In this document: piece by piece, positions 14,988 to 56,473 of the stretch
How the letters are laid out: the number at the start of each line of letters is the position of its first letter
Numbering within the stretch: position 1 is the stretch's first letter
DNA from: an uncultured Acinetobacter sp.
GTDB lineage: Bacteria > Pseudomonadota > Gammaproteobacteria > Pseudomonadales > Moraxellaceae
Direction: 5' to 3'
Length of the DNA stretch: 64,000 bases
NCBI RefSeq assembly: GCF_947624825.1
Contig: NZ_CANQLZ010000002.1
Span: 1 to 64,000, forward strand
Notes under the pieces: model-generated
Told to the model about the DNA's origin: nothing
Database searches by the model: none
The model's input: the letters and a program-made list of their open reading frames with translations, nothing else
Program-made: the position numbers and the translations under genes

Positions 14988-16144
14988 TACACGCTCTCCT
15001 TGGTTGCTTGAAGATGTTCTTTACCACCTAAAAACGCCCGTAATGATTTGACGTACAAAGGAATTGGGAACAAGAATGAGTCGTGACCTTGTTCGGCATC
15101 AATATCTAAATAGCTCACCGGTTTGTTATTGCAAATTAAAGCATCAACAATTTCTTGTGAACGTGCAGGAGTAAAGCGCCAATCGGTGGTAAACGAGACC
15201 AACAAAAACTGACATTTTGGTTCAGCCATGGCTTTGACTAAAGATTGCTCATATTCACGCGCAGGATCAAAGTAATCTAAGGCTTTGGTCATAATTAAAT
15301 AGGTATTGGCATCAAAATTACGGCTAAATTGCTCGCCTTGATAGCGTAAATAACTTTCGACTTGGAATTCCACATCAAAACCATACATAAATTTGCCCGA
15401 CTTTAAGTCACGGCCAAATTTTTGTTTCATGGCTTCTTCAGACAAATAGGTAATATGACCAACCATACGCGCTAAAATTAAGCCACGTTTTGGGTAACTA
15501 TCATTTTCTAAATAGCGCCCATCATAAAAGTCAGGGTCAGATAAAATCGACTGACGTGCCACTTCGTTAAAGGCAATATTTTGTGCCGATAGTTTTGGCG
15601 CACTGGCAATAATCACGCATTTTTGCAGACGATCTGGGTAATCCACGCTCCATTGTAGCGCCTGCATGCCACCTAAAGAGCCGCCAATAATCGCGTACCA
15701 CTGAGCAATACCTAAGCGGTCAGAAAGCATGGCTTGAGTTTTCACCCAATCACGTACTGTGACCAATGGAAAATCAGGGCCATAAGGGCGATTGTCATTT
15801 TCAGGGTTGGGGGATGTAGGCCCAGTTGAGCCATGACAGCCACCAATATTATTAAGCGCCACCACAAAGAATTCATTGGTATCAATGGCTTTATTGGGCC
15901 CAATACAAGCATCCCACCAGCCCGGCTTTTTGTCATCTTCGTGATGATAACCCGCTGCATGGTGATGCCCAGATAAGGCATGACAGATCAAAATAGCATT
16001 CGATTGATCGGCATTGAGTGTGCCATAGGTTTCGACCATTAAATCAAAACGCGGCAATACTCGACCACATTCAAGCTCTAACGGCTCGTCAAAAGAGAAC
16101 TTTTGTGGAATCACAAGACCCACGGAGTCAGCTGGGAAAGACAC
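14987..16144 (-). CDS. metX: Homoserine O-acyltransferase MetX
   Basis: MetX acylates homoserine in the first committed step of methionine synthesis. The 385-residue alpha/beta hydrolase has the oxyanion block [14 protein letters not shown], the nucleophile elbow [12 protein letters not shown] and the terminal GHDSFL histidine. Whether acetyl-CoA or succinyl-CoA is used cannot be decided by eye. The start is GTG ([10 protein letters not shown]) with a weak Shine-Dalgarno. It is the first gene of a metX-metW-Sel1 operon. Confidence 0.94.
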
Positions 16145-27423: not shown

Positions 27424-28950
27424 TTATTGCGCAGCAGCATCAACTACTGGAATCTTACCAATTTTAGCTTGCCAAATTTTTGGTGCAGTTGCGTGTACAG
27501 ATGTACCATTTACGTCAACCGCCACAGATACAGGCATGTCTTTTACAACAAACTTGTAGATCGCTTCCATACCTAAATCAGCAAAGGCAACCACTTCAGC
27601 TTCACGGATGGCTTTTGATACTAAGTATGCAGCGCCACCAACAGCCATTAAATAGGTTGTTTGCGTGTCTTTAATTGCTTCGATTGCAGAAGGACCACGT
27701 TCAGCTTTACCAATCATACCGTAAAGACCAGTCGCTTCTAATACTTGACGCGTGAATTTATCCATACGTGTTGCAGTGGTTGGGCCTGCAGGACCTACAA
27801 CTTCGTCACCGACTGGATCAACAGGGCCTACGTAGTAAATGAACTTACCTTTAAGATCTACAGGAAGTTCTTCACCGTTGTTTAACATATCCACCATACG
27901 TTTGTGAGCCGCGTCACGACCTGTATAGATGGTACCGTTAAGCAATAATGTATCGCCTGGTTGCCAAGCGTTCATTTCTTCTTGGGTAATATTGTCTAAA
28001 TCAACACGCTTAGATGTTGAAGAATCCCAAGTCACTTCAGGATAGTCTTCAAGTTTTGGTGCAATGATATTTGCAACACCTGAACCATCAAGCGTGAAGT
28101 GTGCATGACGCGTTGCAGCACAGTTTGGAATCATACCGACTGGTTTGCCCGCAGCGTGACATGGGTAGTCTTTGATTTTAATATCAAGAACTGTGGTTAA
28201 ACCACCAAGACCTTGAGCACCAATACCAAGCGCGTTGACTTTTTCGAAGATTTCAATACGAAGCTCTTCCATTTTACTTTGTGGACCACGACGAAGTAAC
28301 TCGTCCATGTTGATCTCTTCCATCAATGCTTCTTTAGCAAGCATCATGGCTTTTTCAGCAGTACCACCAATACCAATACCCAACATACCTGGTGGACACC
28401 AGCCTGCACCCATAGTTGGTACAGTTTTTAATACCCAATCCACGATTGAGTCAGATGGATTCAGCATGGCAAGTTTAGATTTGTTTTCTGAACCACCACC
28501 TTTTGCTGCTACAGTGATATCGACTTTGTTACCCGGAACAAGTTTGTGGTAGATCACAGCAGGGGTGTTATCTTTGGTATTTTTACGACCAAATGCAGGG
28601 TCAGCAAGTACAGAGGCACGTAATACGTTTGAGTTCTCTAGGTAACCTTGACGTACACCTTCGTTAATTGCATCGTCTAGGCTCATGGTTAAATCAAATT
28701 TAACGTCCATGCCCACTTCAACGAATACGTTGACGATACCAGTATCTTGGCAGATTGGGCGGTGGCCTTCTGCACACATACGAGAGTTAATTAAGATTTG
28801 TGCAATTGCATCTTTAGCAGCTTTGTTTTCTTCGCGGTCATACGCACGGCTCATCGCTTGAATGAAGTCTTGTGGATGATAGTAAGAAATAAACTGAAGC
28901 GCATCTTTAACCGATGTGATCAAGTCATCTTGCTTGATAATAGTTGTCAT
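27424..28950 (-). CDS. fumA: Class I ([4Fe-4S]) fumarate hydratase
   Basis: This enzyme interconverts fumarate and malate in the TCA cycle. The 508-residue single-chain protein has an N-terminal alpha-type region (SRMCAEGHRPICQDTGIVNVFVEVG, GGGSENKSKLAMLNPSD, GAGWCPPGMLGIGIGG) and a C-terminal beta-type region (GTIYTGRDAAHKRM, VGPAGPTTATRMDKFT). The cysteines in the first part fit the cluster ligands. The class I enzyme is oxygen sensitive, unlike FumC. The symbol is by family; paralogue naming (fumA or fumB) cannot be resolved here. Confidence 0.93.
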   Translation of the reverse strand: MTTIIKQDDLITSVKDALQFISYYHPQDFIQAMSRAYDREENKAAKDAIAQILINSRMCAEGHRPICQDTGIVNVFVEVGMDVKFDLTMSLDDAINEGVRQGYLENSNVLRASVLADPAFGRKNTKDNTPAVIYHKLVPGNKVDITVAAKGGGSENKSKLAMLNPSDSIVDWVLKTVPTMGAGWCPPGMLGIGIGGTAEKAMMLAKEALMEEINMDELLRRGPQSKMEELRIEIFEKVNALGIGAQGLGGLTTVLDIKIKDYPCHAAGKPVGMIPNCAATRHAHFTLDGSGVANIIAPKLEDYPEVTWDSSTSKRVDLDNITQEEMNAWQPGDTLLLNGTIYTGRDAAHKRMVDMLNNGEELPVDLKGKFIYYVGPVDPVGDEVVGPAGPTTATRMDKFTRQVLEATGLYGMIGKAERGPSAIEAIKDTQTTYLMAVGGAAYLVSKAIREAEVVAFADLGMEAIYKFVVKDMPVSVAVDVNGTSVHATAPKIWQAKIGKIPVVDAAAQ

Positions 28951-29277
28951 ATCAAATATCTCTTGAGCGGGCTGTTAGCTAGCGGACTAAATTATAAGAC
29001 AAAAACTTCAAGCTGTGGGTATTTTGGCAAGGCTTTGGGCGAAAGTTTAATGACAGGATTTAAAAACTCAAAATTGATGAAAATTTAAACTAAAAAGTAT
29101 GGTCTTTTGTCATATTTAAGTCACGTTTTTGTCATAAAACTTCAAAAAAATAATCAGATTTTTAATAAGTTTTTGTTTTTAATCATGAATTATTTTTAAG
29201 CCCTAATTTTTGATTGTCATATAACTGTCATAAAACTTTCAGATAATAGCGCCATCAAATCAATGGTTGAATTCTCG
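28951..29277 (+). promoter_or_regulatory. Intergenic region with two Pho-box-like clusters
   Basis: Besides the fumarase upstream region on the minus strand, this stretch holds two sets of 7-mers repeating every 11 bp on the plus strand. The distal set starts at 29107, 29118, 29129 and 29140 (TTGTCAT, AAGTCAC, TTGTCAT, CTTCAAA). The proximal set starts at 29214, 29225 and 29236 (TTGTCAT, CTGTCAT, CTTTCAG). This is the spacing and sequence of PhoB binding repeats (CTGTCAT). No gene lies in the region. Confidence 0.7.
29214..29247 (+). promoter_or_regulatory. Pho box plus -10 element
   Basis: The 18-bp box TTGTCATATAACTGTCAT (29214-29231) closely matches the PhoB consensus. GATAAT (29242-29247) lies 10 bp after it, the geometry of PhoB-activated promoters in which the Pho box replaces the -35. 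A third half-site (CTTTCAG) continues the 11-bp phase. Confidence 0.72.
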
Positions 29278-29358
29278 ATGATTACTAGTGCGCTTATGGT
29301 TGTTGGTTTTAGTGTTTATATCGCTGCAACTTGGATGTACGGTCAAAAAGAAGATTAA
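29278..29358 (+). CDS. 26-residue single-helix membrane peptide, Pho-box controlled
   Basis: This tiny ORF (MITSALMVVGFSVYIAATWMYGQKED) is one hydrophobic helix of about 18 residues with a charged C-terminal tail. It is too short for the ORF track. An in-frame ATG at 29263 would add five residues (MVEFS); neither start has a strong Shine-Dalgarno, so the start is uncertain. A Pho-box promoter lies about 30 bp upstream, and a strong terminator begins inside the last codons, which defines a dedicated transcription unit. I do not recognise a family; its role under phosphate limitation is an inference. Confidence 0.6.
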   Translation: MITSALMVVGFSVYIAATWMYGQKED

Positions 29359-29385
29359 GCCCCCGCTTTATCTTCTTTTTTTTAT
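29346..29385 (+). terminator. Terminator of the Pho-controlled mini-gene
   Basis: The stem AAGAAGAT-AAGC / GCTT-ATCTTCTT has a C-rich loop and a T run. Its 5' arm overlaps the last codons and stop of the 26-residue ORF. Confidence 0.8.
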
Positions 29386-29480
29386 AATAAAAATTATTTT
29401 CTTTTATCGCCTTTGTTTTTATATTCTCCACATTTTACGCTATGCTGATCTTAAGCAAACTCGCTTGATGAGGTGATGTG

Positions 29481-29624
29481 ATGCGCAATTTTTTGTTTGT
29501 TATATCAATGTTGCTATGTACGGTTTCGTTGTATGCTCAACAACCGCCACCCTCGCCACAACCCCCACCGATTCCCGTTCAGCCCTGTGCACCTTTAGCG
29601 GATTGCATTCCACCCACGTATTAA
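29481..29624 (+). CDS. Small secreted proline-rich peptide
   Basis: This 47-residue ORF is below the ORF track cutoff. It has a signal peptide (MRNFLFVISMLLCTVSLYA), followed by a Pro-rich mature part (QQPPPSPQPPPIPVQP) and two cysteines (C36 and C42) that could form a disulfide. GAGGTGATGTG just before ATG is a convincing ribosome-binding site. It lies alone on the plus strand between the Pho mini-gene and the converging pta gene. I recognise no family. Confidence 0.6.
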   Translation: MRNFLFVISMLLCTVSLYAQQPPPSPQPPPIPVQPCAPLADCIPPTY

Positions 29625-29679: not shown

Positions 29680-31821
29680 TTAAACAGCAGCTAATGCTTC
29701 AACCGGCGCTGCTTGTTGTTCAGCTTGAATCGCAGTTAAGGCAATAGTAAACACAATATCATCCACCAAAGCACCACGTGATAAGTCATTCACAGGTTTA
29801 TTTAAACCTTGTAACATTGGACCAACACTCACCACATTGGCTGAGCGTTGCACTGCTTTATAGGTGGTATTCCCTGTATTTAAATCAGGGAAGATAAATA
29901 CATTGGCACGACCTGCAACGTCTGAATTTGGTGCTTTAGAACGACCTACGCTTTCAACCGATGCTGCATCATATTGCAATGGACCATCAATGAGTAAATC
30001 AGGACGACGTTGTTGGGCAATACGTGTTGCTTCTGCTACTTTTTCAACATCTGCACCTGCACCTGAGGTACCGGTTGAATATGAAATCATGGCAATACGT
30101 GGCTCAATGCCAAAAGCTTTAGCAGAATCAGCCGATTGAATGGCAATTTCAGCCAGTTGTTCAGCATTTGGTGCAGGGTTAATCGCACAGTCACCATACA
30201 CATACACTTCATCAGGCAACAGCATAAAGAACACTGACGACACAAGTGAATACTCAGGCGCAGTTTTAATCAGCTGGAATGCAGGGCGTACGGTATTGGC
30301 TGTGGTATGTACTGCACCTGAGACCAAACCATCGACATGATCAAGTGCAAGCATCATGGTGCCTAACACCACGGTATCTTGTAATTGTTCATTGGCCTGA
30401 ATAGCATCTAATTTGCCTTTACGTAATGCCACCATTGGCTCGATGTAATCTGCACGAATACTATCTGGATCAATGATTTCTAAGCCTGCAGGTAATTCGA
30501 CGCCACGCGCTTTGGCCACTTCAGCAACATGTTCAGGTTTTGCCAATAACACACATTGGGCAATGCCGCGTGATTGACAAATAGCAGCCGCTTCAATGGT
30601 ACGTGGCTCATCACCTTCAGGCAGTACAATACGTTTTTTGGCATGAATTGATTTTTGTACCAATTCATGACGGAACGCAGAAGGAGACAAACGCGGCTTA
30701 TGCGTATTGCTGACCAATTGATTGATCCACTCTGGATCTAAATGGCTGCCGACAAAATGCGTGACTTGTTCAGCGCGCGTGGTGTCATCTTGTGGAATTT
30801 CATTACAGAAATTCTGAATCTTTTGCAGCGTGTCATAGGCCGTTAAGCCAGTATGCAAAATAGGTAAACCTGATTTATGGCTTTGACAGAAGTTTAAGAC
30901 CTCGCTGCTTGGTGCTTGTTGTTCTGTTAACACAATACCTGCAAGTGGTGTACCATTTTGATTGCTCAATTGGCTTGCCAATAATACATCCACACGGTCA
31001 GCCGCTGTTACGATCAATTCACCTGCCACAAATTTATTGAGTTCATTGCCAATGTTGCCACCCACTAAACTGCTATGTAAGACGCGACGTTGGTTTTCAC
31101 CTGCGTTAAGCCATGTGGCTTGAATATGTTGGGCAAGGTCAGATAAACGTGGCACGCTTAAAGTATTACTAAATGGTACTAAACCAATAATTGGTAGATT
31201 TTTACCACCTATGTGGGTATGGGTCTTTTGCAAAGCTTGGGTAAATTGCGCTGTTTCATTGACTAAACGTAAGCTTGCGTCTAAGGTCACAGGAATCTGT
31301 GCATCACTTAAACCTTTGGTACGCATAAACAATACGCCTGCAGCACGTTCAAGTGCGTAATGACGTAGTTGGCTTTGTACTTGCTCAGCTGTCGCTTTGG
31401 CTTGATTTAAATCGGCATTAGACACAATCACCACTTTGGCATCTAGGGCTTGTGCCAATTGCGCATTAAATTGTGCCGCAAAAGCATCACGGCCATTTGG
31501 CACTAAACCTTCAGCAATAATGATGTCGTGTTTTTTAGCAATTTCACGATGTAAGCTCACCGCATCTTCCAGTAATTCATCGCTTTGACCCAATGCTAAA
31601 CGTGAAGTGAGGGTCGCATAAGCAATGGGTTCTACAGTTTGGTTTTGGCTAATATGGCGATAAAGTGCTGTGCTACTGTCATTTTGCGCAGTAACATCTT
31701 GAGAAAAGGCTTTTAAAAAACCAGCTTTAATGCCTTGGCACTCTAAAGCATAAACTAAACCTAAGCAGGCTGAGGTAAGACCTACACCTTCAGCGGTTGG
31801 AACAAGAAGAATTGTTTTCAT
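29680..31821 (-). CDS. pta: Phosphate acetyltransferase (long form)
   Basis: Pta interconverts acetyl-CoA and acetyl phosphate. The 713-residue protein is the long enterobacterial-type form. Its N-terminal P-loop-like domain (ILLVPTAEGVGLTSACLGLVYAL) and central DRTGG-like domain precede a C-terminal catalytic domain from about residue 390 (RIVLPEGDEPRTIEAAAICQ, GLVSGAVHTTANTVRP, MISYSTGTSGAGADVEKV, INPAPNAEQLAEIA). It lies 45 nt after ackA on the same strand, an ackA-pta operon for acetate metabolism. Confidence 0.96.
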   Translation of the reverse strand: MKTILLVPTAEGVGLTSACLGLVYALECQGIKAGFLKAFSQDVTAQNDSSTALYRHISQNQTVEPIAYATLTSRLALGQSDELLEDAVSLHREIAKKHDIIIAEGLVPNGRDAFAAQFNAQLAQALDAKVVIVSNADLNQAKATAEQVQSQLRHYALERAAGVLFMRTKGLSDAQIPVTLDASLRLVNETAQFTQALQKTHTHIGGKNLPIIGLVPFSNTLSVPRLSDLAQHIQATWLNAGENQRRVLHSSLVGGNIGNELNKFVAGELIVTAADRVDVLLASQLSNQNGTPLAGIVLTEQQAPSSEVLNFCQSHKSGLPILHTGLTAYDTLQKIQNFCNEIPQDDTTRAEQVTHFVGSHLDPEWINQLVSNTHKPRLSPSAFRHELVQKSIHAKKRIVLPEGDEPRTIEAAAICQSRGIAQCVLLAKPEHVAEVAKARGVELPAGLEIIDPDSIRADYIEPMVALRKGKLDAIQANEQLQDTVVLGTMMLALDHVDGLVSGAVHTTANTVRPAFQLIKTAPEYSLVSSVFFMLLPDEVYVYGDCAINPAPNAEQLAEIAIQSADSAKAFGIEPRIAMISYSTGTSGAGADVEKVAEATRIAQQRRPDLLIDGPLQYDAASVESVGRSKAPNSDVAGRANVFIFPDLNTGNTTYKAVQRSANVVSVGPMLQGLNKPVNDLSRGALVDDIVFTIALTAIQAEQQAAPVEALAAV

Positions 31822-31866
31822 AGTTATATCATCAATCTTTGCGGTTGTGACGAGACACAGTAGGGC

Positions 31867-33075
31867 TTAAGCCACTACTGCATCTTGTTCAGTCTTTTTT
31901 GTTGTGTAGATTCCATTCACAACATTTTCAGTTTCTTGGGCAATGCGACCTTCTTCATCGGTTGGAACGACCCAAATTTGTGGGCCTGTACCGGCATCAA
32001 TACGGCCTTCAGTACCACGTTTTAAGTTGTTGTTGGCATCAACGCTTAAGTTAAAGCCAAAATGTGGTAAGTAGCCTAAAGTTTTTTCACGGATATACGC
32101 CGAGTTTTCGCCAATACCACCTGTGAAGAATAAACCGTCTAAACGTGGTAAACCACAGCTTAAAGCAGCTAAAGATTTTGCTAAACGGTAGCAGAATACT
32201 TCAATGGCTAAAGTTGCATCTTCATTGCCTTGTTCTGAAGCTTCAATCAAAGTACGCATGTCATTGGATAAGTTTGATAAACCCAGTAAACCTGATTGGC
32301 TGTTGAGCATTTTGTCAATTTTGTAGATATCCCAACCTAGGTTGGCTTCTAAGAAACGGTGTAAGCTTGGATCTACATCGCCACTACGCGTACCCATTAC
32401 CAAACCTTCAAGTGGCGTTAAGCCCATTGAAGTATCTACAGATTCACCATTCCAAATAGCACAGGTTGAGCTACCGTTACCTAAGTGCGCTGTTAACCAA
32501 CCACCTTGTTTAAAGCTGCCTGCAAGTTCCGAACCACGTTCAGAAACATAAGCATGGCTAGTACCGTGGAAACCATAACGACGCACGTTATGTTCGGTGT
32601 ATAAAAATTTTGGCACAGCATAGCGATAGGCATGAGCCGGCATGGTTTGATGGAAAGCAGTATCAAATACAGCGACTTGTGGCAAATCTGGGAATAAGCG
32701 TTGAGTGGCTTCAATACCCACCAAATGTGCAGGGTTATGTAAAGGTGCAAGCGGCGTTGCTTGACGAATCACGTTTACAATATCATCGGTGATCAGTTCA
32801 GCTTGCGTAAGTGTGCCACCGTGTACAATACGGTGACCAATTGCATCTGGTTTGTGATTAGCAAGACGCGATAAACCCACTTCTAATGCTTCTTTGTGAT
32901 CTGCATTTGGGATTTTAATGTCAACAGGTTGGTTGCCTAAGGTCACGCCTTTAATACGTGCTTCAGGTGTACCTAAATTTTCAGCAAGGCCATGGATTCG
33001 GAAATTTTGCTCTTTTAATAATAAGGCAAATTTAATTGAAGAAGATCCGCAATTGATAATAAGAACGTTGGACAT
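31867..33075 (-). CDS. ackA: Acetate kinase
   Basis: AckA makes ATP and acetate from acetyl phosphate, or the reverse. From ATG 33075 the protein has 402 residues. It starts [19 protein letters not shown], the N-terminal phosphate-binding motif. It also has [41 protein letters not shown] and [13 protein letters not shown], all ASKHA acetate-kinase signatures. The ORF track extension of 38 codons upstream is not supported by the family N-terminus. It is transcribed ahead of pta. Confidence 0.96.
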
Positions 33076-33343
33076 GGCGTATTCCTTGACTGGCGATTTT
33101 AGTATTAGCTTGTTGTCATCCCAATGATCAAAAAAATGCTGCTTTCTTGATCGTGTGAGTATTTGTATCACGGCTGTTTTTATACTCATAGATAGACTTT
33201 AGGTGATTAGACTTAAGGATGATCGACGCCTTGGCTAATCATAATTATTATTTATTAGTTAAAGCTTTCCATTTTTTTAAAAAATGTGAAGCGACTTAAT
33301 TGTTATAATTTGTTTTATTTTTAAGCAAAAACCAACTAAAAAT

Positions 33344-55528: not shown

Positions 55529-56473
55529 ATGTACCAGAATATTAAATATGATCAGCTTTACCATGAAGCAGAAGTATTGGCAGCAGTAGACCATTTCATT
55601 CAAGAGGTATGCTTGGGTAGTTATGATCTATATTATCAAAACTTTATGATAGACCTACAAAAATTAGTTCAGTCATTTAAGCCAATCTATAACGCTAATT
55701 TTTTCTATTGCAATACTGTGCAGATATTCATTGAGGTGGTGAACATCGTTGATCACACACTCAGTCTAATGCCACAGGCAGACTACGATTGTATAGTCTG
55801 TTTGGATGAGATGACCGTCTGGCATATTTTGACTTACATCCAGTCATTATCTGGCTGTGTAAAACAACAACTGATAGATTTTCAACAACGTGAATTAAAG
55901 AATCAGCATAGCCTTTTTGATTATACATCCACACTCATTCATCATTATGCGAGAACACTGGTGGTTCGAGTGGATTTATCTATCAAGAAAGAATATCAAG
56001 CCTTATACAACATCCAAGTGTTCAATAAAGCGCTAGAAACATTACATCGGCGTATCGCAGATCAGGATACTTGCTTTAGTGATTTGTATGGTTATGCGTG
56101 GGCATTAGAGCATGGAGTAAGCAAAGGCTATCACTGCCATTTATTGCTTATGTACGATGGCAATAAACATCAAGAAGGCTATGAGTTAGGGGAGTGGGTA
56201 GGTAAGTGCTGGGAGCAGATTACACATGGATGTGGTTATATTTTTAACTGTAACCATTCCGACTATATGGATACATATAAAGCGATGGGAACATTAGGCA
56301 TTGGTATGATTCATCGTGATGTTGAGCATGAAGTTTTTAACTTTCTTAATTATGCTACCCCTTATCTAGTGAATTGTGAAAAAGAGCAGCAGCATCCGAG
56401 AGGAAAAGATAAGTCAAACATGCGTAGTTTTGGTAAAGGTGTGATCGATTCGAAAAACCGAAGAGGTTTATAA
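55529..56473 (+). CDS. Inovirus Gp2 / YagK-YfjJ family protein with HUH-like motif
   Basis: This 314-residue protein matches the inovirus Gp2 (YagK/YfjJ C-terminal) family found in islands and filamentous phages and thought to be a replication initiator. Key features are VVRVDLSIKK, the WALEHGVSKGYHCHLLLMYDG block carrying an HxH (HUH-type) motif near residues 196-198, and the downstream GYIFNCN and LNYATPYLV segments. I chose ATG 55529 because GAGAGAG lies at good distance; the two earlier ATGs lack a site. Hairpins upstream may be its target origin. The replication role is inferred from the family. Confidence 0.8.
   Translation: MYQNIKYDQLYHEAEVLAAVDHFIQEVCLGSYDLYYQNFMIDLQKLVQSFKPIYNANFFYCNTVQIFIEVVNIVDHTLSLMPQADYDCIVCLDEMTVWHILTYIQSLSGCVKQQLIDFQQRELKNQHSLFDYTSTLIHHYARTLVVRVDLSIKKEYQALYNIQVFNKALETLHRRIADQDTCFSDLYGYAWALEHGVSKGYHCHLLLMYDGNKHQEGYELGEWVGKCWEQITHGCGYIFNCNHSDYMDTYKAMGTLGIGMIHRDVEHEVFNFLNYATPYLVNCEKEQQHPRGKDKSNMRSFGKGVIDSKNRRGL

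Follow-up and report, generated by a model that had tools for sequence, protein, structure and literature searches.

The interval between the fum and pta genes of an Acinetobacter genome raises the question of whether it contains a phosphate-controlled gene for a tiny membrane protein or instead a small RNA with a short reading frame. The original prediction offered both readings, and described two clusters of PhoB-type 7-mers, a hydrophobic mini-ORF of 26 residues and a strong terminator overlapping its last codons. We analysed the window, meaning the whole stretch of 64,000 nucleotides of DNA in which this locus lies and which belongs to a 2.86 Mb Acinetobacter genome, together with orthologous loci. 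The features discussed below are as follows.

27424-28950, minus strand: class I fumarase gene fum, divergent from the microprotein unit and outside it, used as synteny anchor
29107-29146, plus strand: distal Pho-type cluster, TTGTCAT-ATTT-AAGTCAC-GTTT-TTGTCAT-AAAA-CTTCAAA, 7-mers in 11-bp phase
29214-29242, plus strand: proximal Pho box, TTGTCAT-ATAA-CTGTCAT-AAAA-CTTTCAG, three 7-mers in exact 11-bp phase
29242-29247, plus strand: -10 element GATAAT (CATAAT in most relatives)
29263-29277, plus strand: in-frame upstream-ATG extension MVEFS, shared only between the window and L001, its nearest relative
29278-29358, plus strand: microprotein gene MITSALMVVGFSVYIAATWMYGQKED, 26 codons and TAA, with ATG at 29278 and stop at 29356-29358
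29345-29383, plus strand: intrinsic terminator, with the QKED codons and stop as left arm, ATCTTCTTTTT as right arm, then a U run
29680-33189, minus strand: pta-ackA, downstream of the unit and convergent with it

Lying between divergent fum and convergent pta-ackA, the microprotein gene is solitary and has no operon partner. An attenuator or leader-peptide reading was rejected, since pta, the next large gene in the window, is convergent with the unit. In 58 of 63 fetched loci fum is the upstream neighbor, nearly all loci being divergent from this gene (fumA), and the downstream neighbors are pta, a methyltransferase gene or other unrelated genes. At 29481-29624 on the plus strand the window also contains a proline-rich ORF of 47 aa that begins like a signal peptide and ends in CAPLxxCxPP. 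It has no match in Pfam, and only L001 and L012 have a relative at this position (37-40% identity).

Repeats of CTGTCAT at 11 bp are PhoB sites. In the proximal box the 7-mers occupy 29214-29220, 29225-29231 and 29236-29242, the third running into GATAAT, which begins 10 bp after CTGTCAT; these coordinates confirm the phasing and spacing that had been read from the sequence. The pattern TGTCAT-N5-TGTCAT-N4-CTTT-N3-ATAAT has one match without mismatches in the window, and none of 100 shuffles contains the full box and -10 pattern even with up to three mismatches. The arrangement is also the sole exact match genome-wide, with every other match of three or fewer mismatches being worse. For example, weaker sites of the same type occur just 5' of phoB (contig C13, position 56241; gene at 56298) and pstS (contig C9, position 15053; gene at 15228), and the microprotein box is nearer the consensus than either of these. 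As in other Pho promoters, there are at least two 11-bp-phased repeats of the TGTCAT type, the last full one about 10 bp before the -10 element, that take the place of a -35 element. Conservation extends across 67 orthologous loci, of which 64 have four or fewer mismatches to the consensus over the 26 scored positions of the box and -10 element, 64 have the same spacing between the two, and 66 have the ATG 26-32 nt past the -10 element (30 bases in the window). Transcription is predicted to start at about 29253-29255. The leader sequence differs between species, and a Shine-Dalgarno sequence (GGAGATC), present in many relatives, is not clearly recognisable in the window copy. A PhoB gene scoring over the family cut-off is present in the same genome, and given this promoter anatomy and the established biology of PhoB (PMC10294691) we infer that PhoB activates the microprotein gene. 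An E. coli-type Pho box and a PhoR-dependent phosphate response are known in the same genus from Acinetobacter olsB (PMC11828411), although there the target is an enzyme gene and we found no description of the microprotein in that study or elsewhere.

The distal cluster is less secure than had been implied. Its repeats are present as described (29107-29113, 29118-29124, 29129-29135 and a weak last one at 29140-29146), but two-repeat matches with two mismatches number 12 against 9.7 expected, which is within chance. Because such weak matches are expected by chance, the cluster alone does not constitute evidence. Only 9 of 66 orthologs have a distal cluster above the level of shuffles, so it is lineage-specific and its function is uncertain.

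The reading frame itself is that of a protein. The starts of the family align at 29278, and the ATG at 29263, which would give a 31-aa form, occurs only in the window and L001 and is probably not the start of translation. Products are 26-29 residues long across the family, and no ortholog has an interrupted frame. Core-codon entropies at positions 1, 2 and 3 are 0.57, 0.42 and 1.14, and pN/pS is 0.36 in the true frame versus 0.5-1.7 in the other five, indicating a conserved frame under purifying selection on amino acids. The conserved core is GFxx(Y/F)IAATWxYG, with no variation at F, W, Y and G and almost none in IAATW.

The terminator is likewise as predicted, comprising a hairpin at 29345-29380 (-14.9 kcal/mol) and an 8-T run at 29376-29383. 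Its left arm encodes QKED(QA), and the stop codon lies in or beside the loop. Nearly all orthologs have the hairpin, and several of them show paired changes. For example, GAAGAT/ATCTTC has become AAAGAT/ATCTTT in L010, which replaces E with K; L015 has GAAGAA/TTCTTC, which replaces D with E; and L003 and L005 share a paired change near the loop (AAGTTT/AAACTT). Since its codons form a hairpin arm with paired changes, the C-terminal tail is doubly constrained. A generic terminator scan missed this hairpin, probably on account of an A+T-rich stem with an internal mismatch.

The predicted transcript, about 130 nt long and ending in a strong terminator, is of a kind typical for small RNAs, and the folding z-score of -1.97 also agrees with a Pho-induced regulatory RNA in which the short ORF is incidental or secondary. 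However, that folding derives mostly from the terminator hairpin, substitutions track codon positions, the leader varies by species, and the only Rfam matches in the region (E <= 1) fall far below gathering scores, making this reading very improbable. Because frame, protein and promoter are conserved, and because frame and box decay together (see below), comparison of the orthologs indicates that the locus is a protein gene and not mainly a small RNA. The microprotein reading of the original prediction, including its 26-residue hydrophobic ORF, is strongly supported by this conservation across dozens of species. An additional RNA activity on top of the protein is possible but not needed.

Pfam, NCBIfam and PDB searches with the microprotein gave only chance-level matches, a literature search with the peptide string gave no match, and the microprotein was not found described in literature on Acinetobacter Pho regulation or small proteins. 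The family is apparently undescribed, the gene being overlooked on account of its shortness, which is below the usual annotation size. Within the genus, the profile matches in 76 of the 176 Acinetobacter genomes searched, bearing out the conserved peptide that a search of sister genomes was proposed to reveal, and a 31-aa query matches in 62 of 149. A profile search covering 295 genomes from across the order gave no match outside Acinetobacter, where about 290 genomes were searched. When 84,980 species genomes were scanned for [GA]Fxx[YF]IAATW, the 48 confirmed loci all came from Acinetobacter, with carriers that include lwoffii, schindleri, indicus, bouvetii, tandoii, variabilis, cumulans and gandensis. 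A search of plasmids for the gene found none. As far as searched, the family therefore appears to be restricted to Acinetobacter.

Absence was surveyed in 40 genomes without a profile match, by locating fum and reading the adjoining interval in 30. In one large Acinetobacter clade the fum-pta interval is short and empty with no trace of the gene. Because such traceless absence occurs in many Acinetobacter, the microprotein must be dispensable to the core phosphate response. In other genomes there are recognisable relics (L095, L096, L120 and L233, the last from genome G081), and in all four both the frame and the Pho box are damaged. We found no case of a broken frame beneath a retained Pho box, the pattern that the original prediction had named as evidence against it. 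In L119 the unit is intact as far as a masked stretch. On a fum tree, presence and absence require 8 changes versus 25 with shuffled labels, which points to an old trait of mostly vertical inheritance with several losses; that the changes are losses is suggested by the relics.

The gene is single-copy and mostly found at one place. The helix and WxYG are retained in divergent homologs located elsewhere (L060-L062), which are missing the QKEDQA tail and the overlapping terminator; the Pho box is intact in L060 and degenerate in L061 and L062. Since these homologs retain the helix and WxYG without tail or terminator, these two elements are likely to be the functional core. Separately, L125 (G032:C60:8724-8950), in a small genome and with a part masked, has the divergent form (LSVLAFMLFIAATWFYGKS) twice in tandem, with about 170 bases between the copies. 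L056 (G074:C8:931-1008) is a second, partial copy beside a methyltransferase gene, with neither start codon nor Pho box. Its contig starts with an octamer array, and this copy possibly arose from recombination or assembly at the array.

Such arrays are a recurrent feature of the locus. In 36 orthologous loci, for example L017, L039, L049, L140 and L158, a tandem array of G-free units, each of 7 or 8 bases, begins 31-54 nt past the microprotein stop, right after the terminator; the window has no such array. The units are mostly (TCTTCAAA)4-33, and also TTACATTC, TCATCAAC, AAACCTTC or TCTCAAA. Four copies of TCTTCAAA are found in 36 of 176 genomes, at the microprotein locus wherever the position could be seen except in G126, where they are elsewhere. 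The array is still there in genomes with only a relic of the unit (G037, G081) and in one from which it is gone (G134). Repeats of about 8 nt that contain C and lack G would be suitable for Rho loading; neutral slippage is a simple alternative.

What the protein may do can be considered from its structure. The best 19-residue window has a hydropathy of 1.67 (family median 1.85), which is above the usual threshold for a single span, and AlphaFold2 predicts one helix over residues 2-30 of the 31-aa form (pLDDT 93). The product is consequently predicted to form one transmembrane helix in the inner membrane. Because it is a single helix without extramembrane domains, it could act only within or at the membrane, and because the near-invariant segment spans several helix faces, packing against a partner seems a better explanation than generic disruption of the membrane.

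A short hydrophobic helix under a stress regulator also calls to mind a type I-like membrane toxin that phosphate starvation would induce, much as the SOS response induces TisB, and one family member has a marginal match to Pfam Ibs_toxin (E = 0.088). We regard this as very unlikely. A consensus scan of the minus strand across 29200-29500 revealed no promoter-like site, and hence no sign of the antisense RNA antitoxin of a type I system. Additionally, the leader is short and often has an accessible Shine-Dalgarno sequence in place of a long translation-blocking 5' UTR, the tail is acidic, W, Y and G are invariant, and the gene is single-copy and mostly at one place.

The microprotein fits instead a known class, that of stress-induced small membrane proteins. 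E. coli YoaI, MgtS, KdpF, CydX and MgrB (sequences from MG1655) have no detectable relation to the microprotein profile. YoaI, a direct PhoB target (PMC10294691) that is reported to be a 34-aa protein activating EnvZ-OmpR (PMC11853020), is likewise very small, hydrophobic, encoded by a solitary gene and under PhoB control, which is predicted for the microprotein. However, it differs in genus, neighbors and motif, its site has two clear repeats (TGTCATCAAACTGCCAT), and its profile score of 0.4 equals that of its shuffles, so the microprotein does not belong to the YoaI family. The 31-aa MgtS of E. coli shares one transmembrane helix, a short charged C-terminal tail ending acidic, and stress induction, which is here proposed; its score of 3.0, reached by 2 of 50 shuffles, comes from a match too short and weak for a claim of homology. 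MgtS is controlled by PhoP, unlike the PhoB control predicted here.

We consider it fairly probable that the microprotein is a PhoB-activated, single-helix inner-membrane protein whose role is to modulate one of the core membrane proteins of the phosphate response. During phosphate starvation PhoB~P would bind the three-repeat Pho box, which stands in for a -35 element, and recruit RNA polymerase to the CATAAT/GATAAT element. The monocistronic transcript, about 130 nt long and with roughly 20-30 nt of leader, would end at the hairpin formed in part by the gene's own last codons, and the product of 26-29 residues would enter the inner membrane as one helix. There the GFxx(Y/F)IAATWxYG segment would pack against a larger membrane protein and tune its activity or stability. 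Small proteins that influence phosphate signalling or kinases linked to it have precedents in YoaI and in the DUF1127 proteins. The partner and the direction of the effect are surmised: most likely the partner would be a near-universal component of the phosphate response such as PhoR, Pst or another signalling or transport protein. A search for partners by co-occurrence (PF01384, PF02690) found none, with no evident association for PF02690. Pit (PF01384) is near-universal, except that G132, G144 and G165, all carriers of the divergent form, match it only below threshold. A partner would be expected in almost every carrier, and Pit is therefore unlikely to be the only partner.

A more specific form of this proposal and a rival to it can be weighed, each of them possible but well short of probable. 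The microprotein may be a feedback tuner of PhoR or PstSCAB-PhoU, an MgrB-like protein for Pho that limits or prolongs signalling after induction. This accords with a solitary, monocistronic gene that lies under the closest-to-consensus box of its genome and would act on a membrane partner, and a near-universal partner fits the missing co-occurrence signal. MgrB acts through a periplasmic part, which is missing here along with any homology to MgrB, and the gene is absent from many Acinetobacter species. Small proteins that bind PhoR are nonetheless known, as DUF1127 proteins do so and restrain phosphate uptake (PMC12501420). The microprotein may equally stabilise, or be an accessory subunit of, a respiratory enzyme or a transporter of phosphate or another substrate. 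Its size and single helix fit the class of KdpF, CydX (29-37 aa) and MgtS, and MgtS, which binds PitA and MgtA in E. coli, provides a precedent. However, KdpF and CydX are encoded in the operon of their partner and the microprotein is not, profile scores of MgtS, KdpF and CydX are equalled by 2, 3 and 10 of 50 shuffles, with no significant similarity for KdpF and CydX, and the three genomes without a Pit match over the family cut-off count against Pit.

These results extend a classic regulon by a protein family that has apparently not been described before and whose PhoB promoter is near-ideal. Since the gene is below the usual annotation size, expression and knockout studies in Acinetobacter may have missed it. 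Dozens of Acinetobacter species in which it is present, absent or decayed form a natural comparison set. More speculatively, a genus-specific and repeatedly lost feedback tuner of PhoR/Pst might set differing dynamics of the phosphate response across these species. The family thereby provides a testable case of tiny membrane proteins tuning nutrient stress responses.
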